The position numbers and the translations under genes are program-made. The notes beneath the pieces were generated by a model. The model was not told the origin of the DNA, did no database searches, and saw nothing but the letters and a program-made list of their open reading frames with translations. Of a stretch of DNA of 39,436 nt, positions 3,001-39,156 are shown piece by piece. How positions within the stretch are numbered: position 1 is the first letter of the stretch; every line of letters starts with the position of its first letter. The stretch spans positions 1 to 39,436 of the IMG/VR virus record IMGVR_UViG_3300049222_000535; one strand, given 5' to 3'. This DNA is from a virus.

Positions 3001-6000
3001 TCATACTCAAATGCTTGCCACTAAAAACCTTCACTTTGACGATAATGTTGAATTAAGGTTTGGTCATTATGCAAGCCCTGACCTTAAAATCTACCACAAT
3101 GGAACAACTAACATATCTTACATTGATCAACCGGTAGGCTTACTTAGAGTTAGCGCTCCTGCTTTTGAAATTGTTAATGCGGCAAAGAATGCTTACATGG
3201 CAAAGTTTTACGAACCCAGTAATGGCACTGAAAATGTTCAACTTTATTATAACGGTCTCAAGAAGTTCGAAACAACTACTGATGGTGTATTAGTCACTGG
3301 GCTTCAAATTGATCAATACACGGTAGGGTCTAATGGTAATCAGAACACCTTTGGAACAGCTTCTATATTCACCAATAGTGGGAGTGATGGATTGTATATA
3401 GGTGTTAAGAATGCTAGTTATCCAAATAGGGGGTACTCTTTTAAAGTAACTGAATCAGGGGTTAATTCTGATTTCACAATCAAAGAGCATGGCCTTAGTG
3501 GGGATAGGTTTACGATTAAAACTGGTGGCAACGTTGGTATAGGAACAACTAATCCAAATGCTAAACTGAAAATTGAAAGTGATGCCACCTCGACAGACTC
3601 TAACACTTTAAGAATTCTACACACAAGAAGTGATGCGAATGTTGCTACACAAGCTGCATTCATCGACATGAATTTAAGTGGTGCTGATAACACCACAACT
3701 GATAGAACAAATGCTGGTTTAAAAGTAGATCTAGATTCATCTGCTAATGGGGATGCGGCTAACGAGCATAGAATATATGGTGTTGAAACTGATGTTAGAT
3801 TTACTGGTTTTTCAGATATTGCTCGTGGCGGGTATTTTTACACTGAATCAAACTATACAGTAGGAAAAACAGCACAATTAGTTGGAGTATATGGGAATGC
3901 TACCCATGATGCAAACTCTACCTCTGGAGGGGTATCAAATATGTATGGCGTTTATGGTACAAGCTCCATACAAGATTTAGGAGATGTAGATAATGCTTTT
4001 GGTGGTTATTTTTCAGTAACCGTATCTACAAGTAGAGGCGATGCTAATGTTGGTGTTACAAAAGGAGTTGAGGGAGAGATTTCAATAGATAAATCTACTA
4101 CCATAGATTATGGCACAATGATTGGCGTGTCGTCAATTATAGATAATAATGAAGGCTCCACACCTAACTTCGGAACTCAATATTTATTCAAAGGGGATTA
4201 CCAAGGAACCAAAGGCTCAAATGCATTTGGTATACATGTACAAGGGGACAAAAATTATTTTGAAGGAAATGTTGGTATAGGAACAACTGATCCGTCTAGG
4301 AAATTACAAATAACCCAAACATCCACAACAGAAGGTGGGCTTTATGTATATAGTAACGCCATACACGCTGGAACTACTACAAACTCTTTAGTTTCGATTA
4401 GGCAGGATCATGCTTCTTCTACAGGTACAGTGTTAGATGTAAGAGGTGACGGGACTGGTGATAAATTAATTGTTTGGGATCTTGGTAGTGTTTCTTTGAT
4501 AGTTAAAGATGGAGGCAATGTTGGTATAGGAACAGATAGTCCAGCAGCTAAACTTCATGTAGGGCCAGACAATTTAGTCGGTAATTACACTTCGACAAGA
4601 ACAACTCTTGCTGTTTCTGACACAGCTAACGGAGCGGAATTAATCCTTAGAGGTCAATCACCTAGAATATGGTTTGATGCAACTTCTGGAGGCATGGGCG
4701 AGATGTATCTTGATACAGCGCAGTTTAATATTCTTTCAGGCACACCAACGTCAGCGGGTAATTCAAGGTTTTATATCAAGGCAGACGGTGACGTTGGTAT
4801 AGGAACTAATACTCCGTCTTACAAGTTAGATGTAAATGGATCACTTAATAGTACAAGTTTGTATGTAAATGATATTAGTCAACACGCATCCACAAGATAT
4901 ACCCCACCAAGTAATAACGTTAGTTTTACCAGAACAGCAGCTTCTAACGGTAGTGACCAATGGTTCAAGATATACAGTGGTGGTGGTAGTACGACTTTAA
5001 TTCGTTTAAGTATTACTTCTGGAGGAGACAATACACAGTCTAGAGATGAATTCTTGATCTCGGTAGCTGGTTATGGCTTCAAACACCATATCCAGAAATT
5101 GCCATCAGGGAGATACAACACATCTAAATTACTAGCTATAGCTACTACAAATCCGAGTACAGGAGGTATAGTAGAGATTTGGGTTAAGCTTGGTGGAATG
5201 GCATTAGCAAGCGCTTCTACTAGCATTTTTGCAAATGTAGTACTAGAAAGTAGTTCTGATATTTTATCTTCTGCCACAGGTACAGCGCCAACTATAACAA
5301 ATAATGGTACTCAATTAGATATTAGCACCACTAATAGAAATGATACTACCATAATGGCTTCAAGAGGTGCTACCTTCGGAGGTAACGTTAGTATAGGAAC
5401 AACGAGTCCCGATAGACCATTAACAATAAATTCAGATACTTCACATAGGGCTATAAGAATTTTAGAGAATGATTCAGAAAATGAAAGTTGGGATATCGGA
5501 GTTGATGTTGATGGTGATCTTAATTTTTTCAATAGTGCTAACGCAGATCCAACAGTAGTATTTTCAGATGCTGGCAACGTCACTATAGCAAACAATGCTA
5601 CGGTTTCAGGAGACTTAACAGTATCAGGTGACCTCACAGTCAGTGGGGATACAACAATCATTAATACTGAGACACTTCAAGTCGAAGATCATAACATTGA
5701 ATTGGGTAAAGTAGTTAGTCCAACTGATACGACCGCTGACGGTGGTGGTATCACACTTAAAGGTGCGACTGATAAGACGATCAACTGGGTTAACCTTACT
5801 AGCGCTTGGACATTCAGTGAGAGGGTTGCGATTCCCGATGGTTCCCCTTCTGTACCTTCTCTAACCTTTTCTGATGATGCTGATACTGGTCTTCTCAGAT
5901 TTTTATCTGGGAGTGATGATGCGTTAGGTATCACGACTGGAGGTACACTTAGAGCGCAGTTTAACCCCTCTGGGATAGTTTCTTCTGCAAATGTTTACAG

Positions 6001-24474: not shown

Positions 24475-24996
24475 CTACTGCCCTTTCGCTTTTTTAATTT
24501 GGTCTGCAGTAGGCGCTCCCTTTTGGCCCTTCTTCCTCATCTTCTCTCCCGAACCCCTTTTGATTCTTTCTTTTTTCTTTCTGATGTTTTCCCAGAGGCT
24601 ACTATCAGACTTTTCTTTGAGGATTTCATCATGGCGTTTCATGAAAGCTTCATGATTTGGGCCAGCCATATATAGGGTTTTGCCATCATCATTTGTATGA
24701 GTGTGGAAACCTTTTAATCCTAATTTTTTAGCATCTTCCAAAGCTTTTTCTTTTGTATCGAAGTAATGGTCTGTTTCTTTTTCGCTAGACTCAGAGAAAT
24801 AGTAGTATAAATCGCTTTCGTCCCAAGGGTTTCCGACAACGATAGAGGCTTTGCTTTCTGCGTTTTGAAACTGTGACGAGCATACGGCAGCTCTCTGCTT
24901 AGAGTCTTTAAATTCTTCTTTAGTTGTGAGATCAACCATACAACGGCTAATGAACTCAGACCTTTTTTCTCCGTTATTGGGGGTTGGTAATGGCAT
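24475..24996 (-). CDS. Protein with EFISRCM-KQRAAVC phage motif
   Basis: The ATG at 24996 (173 residues) is preferred over an in-frame TTG at 25014. The N-terminus, MPLPTPNNGEKRSEFISRCM followed by FKDSKQRAAVCSSQF, is a motif found in many phage proteins, often near prohead proteases and morphogenesis genes. The middle has DTKEKALEDAKKLGLKGFHTH and a YMAGPNHEAFMKRHDEIL segment. The C-terminus is a basic region (KKKERIKRGSGEKMRKKGQK) ending PTADQIKKAKGQ. It forms a two-gene minus-strand island with the upstream zincin-like gene. Function unknown; DNA or capsid association is possible from the basic tail. Confidence 0.7.
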   Translation of the reverse strand: MPLPTPNNGEKRSEFISRCMVDLTTKEEFKDSKQRAAVCSSQFQNAESKASIVVGNPWDESDLYYYFSESSEKETDHYFDTKEKALEDAKKLGLKGFHTHTNDDGKTLYMAGPNHEAFMKRHDEILKEKSDSSLWENIRKKKERIKRGSGEKMRKKGQKGAPTADQIKKAKGQ

Positions 24997-25011
24997 ACTA
25001 TTTATTACACT
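24997..25011 (-). promoter_or_regulatory. AGTGTAATAAATAGT element abutting start codon
   Basis: On the minus strand this 15-base element touches the ATG at 24996. A copy differing at one base (AGTGTAATTAATAGT) touches the start of the next minus gene upstream. It resembles the AT-rich late promoters of T4-like phages, but its role is unproven. Confidence 0.45.
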
Positions 25012-32976: not shown

Positions 32977-33503
32977 TAAAATTAGACTTCAACCAGTCCA
33001 TGATAGATGAGGCTGTTAAGAAAGCGGAAGAATTAGGATCTATTAATAACTCTATCACATCAGGCAGAGGTAACTTAGCTGGTTACTTAGCTGAGATTGC
33101 GTTAACAAAGCATTTAGGTTGTAAGAATATATCTTGTGATAAAGGCAGAGATAAATATGACTATGATCTAATCAAAGATGGCCGAAAAATAGATGTCAAA
33201 ACAAAGAGGAGAACTGTAGATCCAAAGCCTTTTTTTGAAGTATCTATAGCGGGGACGAGTAAGCACCAAAAAACAGATACTTACGCTTTTATTTCTATAA
33301 CTTTCAAAGAGAAAAGGGGTATGGGTAGTCAAGCGCAGTATTATGGAGTAGAATCAATATGGTTATGTGGGTTTATGTCTAAGGAGGATTACTTTGATAA
33401 GGCGATCTTCTGGAAGAAAGGGGCTGTAGATCCGTCTAATGGTTTTAAAGTTCATGCGGATATGTATAACATGCCTATAAGTAGCTTAGGAGAATCAATA
33501 TGA
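32973..33503 (+). CDS. PD-(D/E)XK nuclease-like protein
   Basis: The ATG at 32973 (176 residues) is chosen because it forms an ATGA overlap and starts the conserved part; an upstream in-frame ATG at 32922 lies inside the previous gene. The core, NLAGYLAEIALTKHLG (E41), KYDYDLIKDGRKIDVKTKRR (D65, D74-V-K76) and a TDTYAFISITF strand, fits the PD-(D/E)XK fold: acidic helix residue, D, then DxK. Such phage proteins may cut host or recombination-intermediate DNA. No target-binding domain is visible. It is embedded in a sugar-modification run, so it may simply be packed there. Confidence 0.65.
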   Translation: MIKLDFNQSMIDEAVKKAEELGSINNSITSGRGNLAGYLAEIALTKHLGCKNISCDKGRDKYDYDLIKDGRKIDVKTKRRTVDPKPFFEVSIAGTSKHQKTDTYAFISITFKEKRGMGSQAQYYGVESIWLCGFMSKEDYFDKAIFWKKGAVDPSNGFKVHADMYNMPISSLGESI

Positions 33504-34339
33504 AAGAAGTATTGGTCACAGGATCTTCTGGATACATAGGTTCTCATCTTTTGAAGAAGATAGTTGGCGGCTCTCTATATAGGGTTTCGGGCATAGATAA
33601 AGAAAATCCAGATAAAGTTCACCCTGATAAATTTTATTATGGAGATATTAGGAATGATAAGTATCTAAAATATAAATACCCTTTTGATTGTGTAGTGCAT
33701 TTAGCTGCTGAAATGAGGGTTGGTGAATCAGTGAAAGATCCAATCCTGTATTATGAAACCAATGTTCTTGGGACTTTGAATGTTTTGAGGAATATAAAGA
33801 CTAAGCATTTTATCTTTGCTTCGACTGGGGCAGCAGAGGGTTTAGCTTCACCTTATGGTATTTCTAAGAAATCGGCAGAAGAAATTGTAATCCAATACTG
33901 CTTAGAGAATGATATTCAATATACAATTTTTAGGTTCTATAATGTTATTGGTTCAGATGGTATCCCGATTAAAAATCCAGATGGATTATTTTTTAATCTT
34001 TTAAAGTCAAAAGACACAGGTGTATTTACAATTTTTGGTAATGATTATGATACTGAGGATGGCACTTGCATTAGGGATTATGTCCATGTGAATGAAATTT
34101 GCGAGTCAATTCTTTTATCATTAAGCGAACCTTCGAATGGAATAGAGAATTTGGGGCATGGAGAGGGGAATTCTGTATTAGATATGTTTAATATTTTTAA
34201 AAAAGTGAATGATCTGGACGTGTCTTTGCGATATGGCCCTCGTAGAGATGGAGATATACCAGTAAGTGTTTTGAGTAATAAGAGTGCTTACATTAAAAAT
34301 GAGTATAAATTAGAGGATTTGCTCAAAGTTATTTCTTGA
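33500..34339 (+). CDS. galE: GalE-like NAD-dependent sugar epimerase
   Basis: The 279-residue protein is an extended short-chain dehydrogenase: LVTGSSGYIGSHL (GxxGxxG 8-14) binds NAD, VVHLAAEMRVGESVKDP is the family's LAA loop, and S108/T109 with Y119-K123 (YGISK) form the catalytic set. FGNDYDTEDGTCIRDYVHV is the GalE signature for UDP-Glc/UDP-Gal epimerisation. It is shorter than E. coli GalE (~338), with a compact C-terminal sugar domain, so substrate may differ. ATGA coupled to the nuclease-like gene; GGAG upstream. It probably supplies UDP-sugar for the glycosyltransferases nearby. Confidence 0.85.
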   Translation: MKEVLVTGSSGYIGSHLLKKIVGGSLYRVSGIDKENPDKVHPDKFYYGDIRNDKYLKYKYPFDCVVHLAAEMRVGESVKDPILYYETNVLGTLNVLRNIKTKHFIFASTGAAEGLASPYGISKKSAEEIVIQYCLENDIQYTIFRFYNVIGSDGIPIKNPDGLFFNLLKSKDTGVFTIFGNDYDTEDGTCIRDYVHVNEICESILLSLSEPSNGIENLGHGEGNSVLDMFNIFKKVNDLDVSLRYGPRRDGDIPVSVLSNKSAYIKNEYKLEDLLKVIS

Positions 34340-34370
34340 TAATACTTACATTAAGGTTTAGAATAACAAA

Positions 34371-35066
34371 ATGGAGTCGCTTAGAAGACTAGCAGTTTAT
34401 CAGGGAGTTACTTATCCTGATTATGAGATAGATTTTTATACCTCAAATACTTATAGTAAGAGGTTTAGAGATAGAATTTTGAAGCCTCGTCATGATAGTA
34501 GTAATTATCTTGCCTATAACTTTTGTTTAAAAGGCTCTGAGCGGCATGTTAGACAACACAAAGTATTAGCAGAAACATTTTATGATCTTTTGCCTAAATC
34601 TCCATTAGTGTCTCATTATGGTTTGCAAATCGGTCGTGATCGACATGAATTACTGACTCCAACAGGATTTACTTTTATTTGTAGTCAGGTATGCCCTGAC
34701 CATATTGATGGGAACAAAACCAACAATCACCATAGCAATTTAATGATTGCTACTCAACATGAGAATCTTATTAAGTGTGGGCCATTCAAAGGCAAGAGAT
34801 ATAAGGGTGCATATAAACAATCTAAGAATGGTAATACTTATAATAGGATGCAGCTAGAATTTACGAATATTTTAGATAAAGATGGTAAACGTTTTTTTGC
34901 TTCTAAATTCTTTAAAACAGAAGAAGCAGCAGCATTAGGATATAATACAGTGCTAGAAAAATCTCTACTTACCATTTGGGGGTCAGATTTGGGGCCAAAG
35001 CTATATGATTTTGCTTATAAGAATGTAATTGAGACTCCTATTCAAGAACAATTAATACTTAGGTAA
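34371..35066 (+). CDS. HNH endonuclease, first of tandem pair
   Basis: The 231-residue protein has an HNH core, CPDHIDGNKTNNHHSNLMIA (residues 108-127), with the DHIDGxxxNN pattern of HNH_3 homing nucleases. An upstream helix-type motif HKVLAETFYDLL resembles NUMOD4-type regions, and a C-terminal DNA-binding segment (AYKQSKNGNTYNRMQLEFTN, FKTEEAAALGYNTVLEK) resembles a degenerate AP2 domain. Such genes are selfish and target related phage genomes. It is followed after 1 base by a second HNH gene. No intron or interrupted host gene is evident. Confidence 0.85.
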   Translation: MESLRRLAVYQGVTYPDYEIDFYTSNTYSKRFRDRILKPRHDSSNYLAYNFCLKGSERHVRQHKVLAETFYDLLPKSPLVSHYGLQIGRDRHELLTPTGFTFICSQVCPDHIDGNKTNNHHSNLMIATQHENLIKCGPFKGKRYKGAYKQSKNGNTYNRMQLEFTNILDKDGKRFFASKFFKTEEAAALGYNTVLEKSLLTIWGSDLGPKLYDFAYKNVIETPIQEQLILR

Positions 35067-35067
35067 T

Positions 35068-35691
35068 ATGAAAACTAAAAGAAAATTCATCCCAATCCCC
35101 AAAGACATAGGAGATTATATTGCTTACTGTGAAGAATCAAGCACTGGGCTTATTAATAAAGTTAATCGGCGGAGGGCTATAAAAGGTAAAGAAGCTGGAT
35201 ACATTGATAACGGTTACTTTAAGATAAAATTTCATTGTAATCCCTATTGTGTTCATAGAATAGTCTACTTCCTATGTACGGGGATAGACCCAGAAGAAAA
35301 GCAGATTGATCATAAAGATGGTGACAGATTAAACAATAAATTTTCAAATCTTAGGTTAGCTACGTCTAGTCAGAACGTATATAATTCCAAGCAACGAAAA
35401 GATAATACTAGCGGGGTAACTGGGGTTTTTTGGAGCAAAAGCACTGAGAAGTATGAAGTGAATATTTACAATAAAGGCAGGCTCCTTAAGCTTGGTCGTT
35501 TTTATGACAAAGACGAAGCTGTAGCGGTCCGCATAGCAGCCGAAACAAACCCTAGATTCAAAGATCAGGAATTCAGACATTCCCACAACGATGGACACGC
35601 TCCTTCCCCAGAAATGTTAGAGTGGGGCGAGAAGTATCTTGAAGACAGAATAGAGAGACTAGGTTGGGAAGATAAGTATTATTTACAATAA
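35068..35691 (+). CDS. HNH-AP2 endonuclease, second of tandem pair
   Basis: The 207-residue protein has a canonical HNH_3 core, QIDHKDGDRLNNKFSNLRLA (79-98), followed by SQNVYNSKQRKDNTSG and an AP2 DNA-binding domain (VTGVFWSKSTEKYEVNIYNK and GRFYDKDEAV, 117-151). The C-terminus (HAPSPEMLEWGEKYLEDRIE) is helical. It is more intact than the first copy. It probably invaded along with or after its neighbour; the pair separates galE from the membrane protein at 35693. A free-standing homing role is inferred. Confidence 0.9.
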   Translation: MKTKRKFIPIPKDIGDYIAYCEESSTGLINKVNRRRAIKGKEAGYIDNGYFKIKFHCNPYCVHRIVYFLCTGIDPEEKQIDHKDGDRLNNKFSNLRLATSSQNVYNSKQRKDNTSGVTGVFWSKSTEKYEVNIYNKGRLLKLGRFYDKDEAVAVRIAAETNPRFKDQEFRHSHNDGHAPSPEMLEWGEKYLEDRIERLGWEDKYYLQ

Positions 35692-38076: not shown

Positions 38077-38142
38077 TTATTAATTGTTCGTTTGAAATTA
38101 TAAAAACCACGTCATTTGCAACAATATACTTGACCAGCCACG

Positions 38143-38218
38143 TATACCCCCATAACACCTACCCAATGACACACACAACCATACCACTCAATCACCATCT
38201 ACACCTTATACAATATAA
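38143..38218 (+). other. G-depleted C/A-rich tract
   Basis: Only one G (38168) occurs in 76 bases while C and A alternate (ACACACAAC, CCATACCACTC). Strong strand asymmetry like this occurs in unstructured RNA loading sites and at replication elements. Confidence 0.6.
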
Positions 38219-38323
38219 GAAAGATACAAGTCAATATAGAGGGGAATAGAAACAGAATGATCGATAAAATAAAATGCATGGAAGTTGATTATGGATTGGC
38301 CATATTAATTATATTTAAATAAT

Positions 38324-38336
38324 AAAAAGTCTTTTT
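38324..38336. repeat. AAAAAGTCTTTTT odd palindrome
   Basis: Inverted counterpart of 36303-36315, lying in the noncoding region after the RuvB-like module. See that entry. Confidence 0.35.
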
Positions 38337-38534
38337 AAATAATTCTCGTTAATTTTCCTTGATTTTACAGGGATTTAGCGGCACACTCTTGGACGTGGAC
38401 ACTATAGTATTCGTAACATTTTTTGCATGGGGGTTGTATATGGCGATCACCAGAGACAGCAGATAAAGATCAAAATAATAAAATAAATGGATTTTCGCTA
38501 GGGGGTAAATACAAAAAGTTTTTAAAAAAAGCTG

Positions 38535-38752
38535 CAGGTCGCGGCATATGCCCCAAATAAGAATAAAAAAAAACAAATAAGAGCAACCTCGCCCCACCAG
38601 CCACGTTCGCAGGTCGTGTGATATCGCCCAAATAATAATGAAACAAAAAACAATATTAATTTGCCCCGCACCAAATAATACATTCCGCTCGATGTTCAGG
38701 TCAAGTCATTTCGCGCCAAATAACTCAGGTCGTGATATTTTTGCCGAAATAA
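38535..38752 (+). repeat. Four iteron-like direct repeats
   Basis: Repeats of 26, 26, 27 and 27 bases start at 38535, 38610, 38697 and 38726. Each begins CAGGTC and ends AAATAA, with an ATAT/ATTT core and GCC or CCC before the AAATAA end. The first two share 21 of 26 bases. Extra AAATAA copies with a C-rich lead occur near 38670, 38763 and 38811. Iteron arrays are binding sites for replication initiators or regulators; here the role is unproven. Confidence 0.75.
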
Positions 38753-38843
38753 CGAATAACTACCAAATAAGTAATATCCCCCAGAACAAACAAAATAAAC
38801 CCAAATAAAGCTCGGCTTCGATGGCGACCACGTTCAACGGTCG

Positions 38844-38870
38844 GTAACTCACTGAGCGACAACGGGTTAC
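38844..38870. repeat. GTAACTC/GGGTTAC inverted repeat
   Basis: GTAACTC (38844-38850) can pair with GGGTTAC (38864-38870) with one G-U. The same GAGTTAC core recurs three more times downstream, so it is part of a related set. Confidence 0.45.
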
Positions 38871-38916
38871 AAAGCTCACTAACAATAAAAAACTTCCTAA
38901 GTCATTGATTAGTAAG

Positions 38917-38973
38917 GAGTTACGGGCGGCGGCATCCGCCCAGCCGTAACTCGCTGATAGTCAACGAGTTACG
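38917..38973. repeat. Overlapping GAGTTAC hairpins (mutually exclusive)
   Basis: GAGTTACGG (38917-38925) pairs with CCGTAACTC (38944-38952), with inner GGCGG/CCGCC. CGTAACTCG (38945-38953) also pairs perfectly with CGAGTTACG (38965-38973). The middle arm can join only one partner at a time. On the minus strand this lies 7 bases after the stop at 38980; a six-T run follows at 38892-38887, so termination of the minus genes is one possible job. Confidence 0.65.
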
Positions 38974-38979
38974 AGGTTT

Positions 38980-39156
38980 TTATTTAATGTATTCTTTTAC
39001 AGAGAGACAGTTAAACTCCATTGCCCTTTGATCGGTAGGATCTCCAGCCTCTCCAACCTCAACTAAGTCGATAGCCGCAGCCTCCGAAGAGGCTTCAACC
39101 TCAAACTGCAAGCGGTTTACTTCCTCGACTATCACCAAGTAGTTTTTAATCTTCAT
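38980..39156 (-). CDS. Hypothetical protein, 58 aa
   Basis: The ATG at 39156 is chosen; an upstream in-frame ATG at 39207 lies inside the preceding gene. The protein reads MKIKNYLVIVEEVNRLQFEV then EASSEAAAIDLVEVGEAGDP, a small beta-beta-alpha pattern with a SEAAAIDLVE helix like the SEEEAxExAxE segments of short phage proteins. It overlaps the preceding minus gene by 11 bases. Function unknown. Confidence 0.65.
   Translation of the reverse strand: MKIKNYLVIVEEVNRLQFEVEASSEAAAIDLVEVGEAGDPTDQRAMEFNCLSVKEYIK

Follow-up and report, generated by a model that had tools for sequence, protein, structure and literature searches.

Mycobacteriophage stoperators are short, asymmetric sites that bind a known repressor and occur in many copies at the gene borders of one phage genome. 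The REPIN elements of bacteria consist of paired palindromes around a spacer and lie between genes in many copies. The put RNA of phage HK022 contains two hairpins. Put works in cis on early phage transcripts and acts as nascent RNA near the transcript start (PMC9378689). In T4-type phages, the promoter early stem-loop (PeSL) cassettes (Arbiol 2010; Comeau 2014; via PMC4503421 and PMC5931544) are, as these citing papers describe them, cassettes repeated between genes of the variable early region in T4-related phages, where they bring together sigma70-like promoter signals and stem-loops.

Here we analysed the 39,436-base IMG/VR virus record IMGVR_UViG_3300049222_000535 (the whole stretch is referred to as the window) and found a nest of inverted repeats that is one copy of a previously unnoticed 77-bp DNA element of an uncultured marine phage group. 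Like stoperators, the element would provide many protein-binding sites at gene borders within one genome; it differs in being built of paired palindromes with a putative binder. It shares with REPINs the paired palindromes, the spacer, the intergenic position and the multiple copies, but its copies stand at orthologous positions and resemble one another within a genome in the spacer only. As with put, it would be a cis-acting element of early phage transcripts; however, its predicted transcripts run mostly opposite to the genes and its stems are not maintained by pairing. The nearest of these concepts is the PeSL cassette, which, compared through citing papers and general knowledge, the element plausibly resembles in function, although, as far as those papers describe PeSLs, it differs in its fixed 27-22/23-27 triple-palindrome design, in its genome-specific spacer, in a promoter motif that points inward and mostly against genes, and in arms that do not covary.

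Palindromes in the window

The inverted-repeat nest that a preliminary description had placed at 38844-38973 is real, and its clustering and folding are both unusual. Four GTAACTC/GAGTTAC arms are exact (38844-38850, 38917-38923, 38946-38952 and 38966-38972); a fifth, GGGTTAC (38864-38870), carries one mismatch, and a sixth, CTAAGTC (38897-38903), is degenerate. Over the whole window the bare 7-mer occurs 8 times against 4.2 expected, so that the clustering, not the count, stands out. The correct unit of the nest is three 27-bp palindromes, D1, D2 and D3, rather than loose 7-base arms. Palindrome scans place D1, an extra single palindrome, at 38844-38870, 26 bp before the D2/D3 pair. D2 (38897-38923), the first palindrome of the pair, was recovered by scanning both the loci and the window; it has the degenerate left arm and is kept at the equivalent place in L001, L002, L004, L005 and L008. 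D3 (38946-38972), found by both pattern and palindrome scans, matches the family pattern exactly, and between D2 and D3 lies a G+C-rich spacer of 22 bp (38924-38945) that is itself an imperfect palindrome. With up to three mismatches allowed, the 27-bp pattern GTAACTCNNTGANANTCANNGAGTTAC has two sites in the window, both in the nest and each read on both strands, against an expectation of 0 from 100 shuffles. Folding z-scores of the nest relative to shuffles are -5.9 for the + strand as RNA, -5.0 for the - strand as RNA and -4.4 for DNA.

T-runs face outward on both sides of this copy. The one after D2 (38887-38892, - strand) could serve the - strand operon as a terminator tail, and the one after D3 (38977-38981, + strand) could do so for + strand transcripts; the last open reading frame of the - strand operon (38980-39156, - strand) ends 7 bp from D3. 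The window copy has no clear promoter and no inward TTGACA motif. Iteron-like repeats of the CAGGTC...CCAAATAA type, about 28 bp each, neighbour the nest at 38532-38752 (+ strand), within a noncoding stretch of 900 bp between convergent genes (38077-38980). Similar repeats also adjoin palindromes at 11930-12000 of L005, and in relatives, repeats resembling those of the window are again found upstream of the DUF932 gene. The nest had rightly been taken for a cis element, and is one copy of a conserved intergenic family. The suggestion that it forms a joint element with the iterons finds some echo in a third palindrome that recurs with CAAATA-type repeats at a few borders, but most copies elsewhere have no iterons.

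A repeated intergenic family

Relatives were reached through the clamp-loader gene; they run past the end of the window and carry more copies. Exact matches to the pattern turned up in 94 viral contig stretches, with several often on one contig, and in a further 13 stretches from bacterial genomes. A relaxed scan of IMG/VR phage contigs yielded 270 distinct palindrome pairs and 189 non-redundant copies of the element, with 4 to 11 copies per carrier genome or contig. The distance from palindrome to palindrome is 49-52 bp, and exactly 50 bp in 233 of the 270 pairs; with its imperfectly palindromic spacer, the element thus comprises three palindromic units spaced about 25 bp from centre to centre. 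Where extra palindromes occur, most are separated from a pair by 7-8, 10-11, 17-20 or 26-27 bp. Searches of annotated phage and plasmid records returned no full-length match to the element, only weak partial ones, and nothing in Rfam matched at the element at gathering or relaxed thresholds. Single 27-bp palindromes that lack a partner at 50 bp were seen in contigs of Fibrobacter (L136, L137, L138, L142, L143 and L145) and Zixibacteria (L139, L146 and L147) metagenome-assembled genomes.

Among the 90 copies that were mapped, a single one runs into a predicted gene; the others lie between genes as called by a simple script, for which reason the small open reading frames are approximate. Tandem gaps contain 60 of the 90 copies, convergent gaps 22 and divergent gaps 8, and the element is present in 22 of 36 convergent gaps versus 68 of 235 other gaps (p=2e-4). 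Copies stand at borders between small early or accessory gene modules, at orthologous places across phages. In 12 contigs, two of them near-identical, an element lies within 300 bp on the 5' side of the DUF932 gene, and in 11 of these 12 the gene is flanked on both sides; the median protein identity in this family is 64%, and the places of the element are therefore old.

Two copies lie near tmRNA-like sequence. An Rfam tmRNA match at L049:5996-6061 (- strand) is close to one element, and a stretch at 24940-25010 of G005 (entry: L149, about 4940-5010), near another, has a 3' part resembling the L049 tmRNA; at least one predicted neighbour gene (G005 25007) adjoins a tmRNA-like stretch. The sequence could represent a tmRNA of the phage or else an attachment site.

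Possible transcription signals around the element

A TTGACA motif pointing inward is found 34-40 bp outside the element on 65 of 378 sides; shifted windows gave 1-8, and in the same comparison the motif pointing away was counted 4 times. Its distances cluster near 27-28, 35-38 and 47-48 bp, and the DNA upstream is A+T-rich. A TATRGR -10 motif, 16 bp downstream, is clear in one subgroup, where the predicted start falls at the element edge, and the -10 match is weak elsewhere. In tandem gaps the predicted reading direction is against the genes only in 17 cases, along them only in 6 and both in 6. Many copies have no clear promoter. A TTTT run occurs within 18 nt outside the element on 120 of 378 sides versus 53 in a control window, approximately a twofold excess. 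A PeSL cassette would be expected to contain a strong sigma70-like early promoter and a stem-loop that ends transcription. At the present element TTGACA is enriched at a fixed distance, but the -10 is weak in most subgroups and absent at the window copy; T-runs are enriched, yet are absent from both sides in 100 of the 189 copies.

How the element may be recognised

Palindrome positions 3, 4, 24 and 25 are invariant across the 189 copies, and positions 10 and 18 almost so. Among 89 disjoint near-identical pairs of copies, 86 arm changes turned a pair into a mismatch and 87 a mismatch into a pair, and 4 were compensatory. Arm position 5 is mispaired in about 40-45% of palindromes, without compensation, and palindromes with swapped halves fold as well as the real ones. 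No clear bias towards G-U over A-C was found on the predicted RNA strand (66 vs 54). The asymmetric centre triplets of the two palindromes of a pair point in the same direction in 51 cases and in opposite directions in 15, and their direction showed no association with the promoter side (24 and 24). The distances of extra palindromes and of TTGACA suggest helical phasing, although many of these sites are related by descent. Given the invariant positions, the lack of arm covariation, the absence of a clear G-U bias and the apparent phasing, we favour recognition of the element as double-stranded DNA over recognition as an RNA fold. Outward T-runs at some copies and some compensatory change in the spacer could nevertheless reflect an RNA role.

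The spacer is about 90% G+C across the family and is palindromic at register 0 only (0.567 Watson-Crick versus 0.38-0.44 at other registers), with 13 compensatory changes at that register and 3-11 elsewhere. Spacer identity within a contig is 0.727, a value that 500 label shuffles never approached beyond 0.580 and a similarity that could partly reflect shared lineage, which is only partly controlled for. The variable palindrome positions and the flanks are near background in their within-genome similarity, and the excess is confined to the spacer core, mostly at symmetric positions. At orthologous places in different phages, spacers are no more alike (0.557) than in unrelated copies (0.558). 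Had a block been copied or gene-converted, the likeness should extend beyond the spacer, and a factor acting in trans and specific to each genome is therefore the simplest reading; one palindrome consensus across phages, together with a symmetric, genome-specific spacer, suggests recognition in trans at the level of DNA. We tentatively propose, as a possibility that we hold to be less than even, that the spacer is a symmetric, genome-specific address which a phage-specific factor reads in trans at every copy in its genome, and the framing palindromes are read by a clade-wide one. If so, each phage would mark the borders of its own early modules with a private code, which would allow self-specific control or the exclusion of relatives.

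Weighing the explanations

We give about an even chance to the reading that the element is a protein-bound boundary or operator array at the borders of transcription modules, with a putative binder, and prefer it to an RNA switch. Dimeric proteins would bind the palindromes as double-stranded DNA: a factor common to the clade may read the outer pair, the spacer being read by a factor or domain specific to each phage, and the resulting complex would insulate or control the neighbouring early transcription units. At the window copy, transcription arriving from either side may in addition be terminated by the hairpins with their outward T-runs, chiefly transcription of the - strand operon, whose end lies 7 bp away. 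The family reveals a regular and widespread system of cis elements in an uncultured marine phage clade. It makes it possible to test how these phages divide up their early transcription, and whether their genomes each have a recognition code of their own.

The preliminary description had offered a bidirectional terminator as an alternative, and at the window copy this is still plausible because T-runs face outward on both strands. For the family as a whole we consider it unlikely that the hairpins and flanking T-runs simply end transcription at operon borders, with nothing more needed. The enrichment in convergent gaps, the excess of T-runs and the position of the window copy beside an operon end all fit a terminator; the many copies with no T-run on either side do not, nor do the uncompensated mispairs at arm position 5, and a terminator would not require a fixed consensus, a 50-bp spacing or a genome-specific spacer. 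The stem of an intrinsic terminator would be expected to be kept by compensatory changes, whereas here 4 such changes stand against 173 one-sided ones that make or break a pair. This count, which comes from the relatives in which covariation was to be sought, also tells against the mutually exclusive hairpins of an attenuator or switch that had been envisaged. The sequence permits a long + strand hairpin and separate - strand hairpins, but in 300 of 300 shuffles the two palindromes pair with one another less strongly than controls with halves swapped within the genome, and an RNA switch is in our view scarcely credible.

A small RNA gene, in which a sigma70-like promoter outside the element would drive an RNA of about 80-100 nt with two hairpins from the element edge, would account for the inward TTGACA at a fixed distance, the A+T-rich upstream DNA, the TATRGR of one subgroup and the tendency of tandem-gap copies to be read against the genes. 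The motif is, however, found on only about one-sixth of sides and not at the window copy, and with neither G-U bias, arm covariation nor an Rfam match we judge this reading rather improbable. Many intergenic copies in both orientations, with spacers alike within a genome, recall a mobile or amplifying repeat of the REPIN or MITE type. The copies, however, stand at orthologous places across phages, and their likeness within a genome is limited to the spacer, excluding the free positions of the palindromes and the flanks; without similarity over the whole element among the copies of one genome, a transposable repeat is disfavoured and seems very improbable. Three further candidates were considered. 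A single iteron replication origin sits poorly with 4-11 copies per contig, and CCAAATA repeats are only weakly enriched near elements. Alignments end at element edges approximately 1.6-fold more often, as breakpoints of the module shuffling that PeSL cassettes would mediate might, a weak excess that conservation alone explains. The arrangement of two palindromes around a G+C-rich centre prompted a comparison, from general knowledge, with integron attC sites, but spacing and core motifs differ.

Carrier phages

Searches of annotated phage records with the terminase and two further core proteins gave no close relative, and the clade therefore appears to be uncultured. Carrier contigs have a common core of genes with T4-like features that encode a clamp loader, PhoH, the N terminus of a T4-type terminase, a GP88-family protein, a DUF932 protein and a sigma-70-like protein whose own family matches are weak but consistent. 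The sigma-70-like protein, of 226 amino acids in L149:7815-8492 (+ strand), was found in 13 of 15 contigs compared and is possibly a late sigma factor. The window also encodes a pyrimidine dimer glycosylase. At 33500-35691 it carries a pair of genes for HNH endonucleases, together with one whose PHROG match has the annotation nucleotide-sugar epimerase, and across this stretch the alignments to close relatives are broken.
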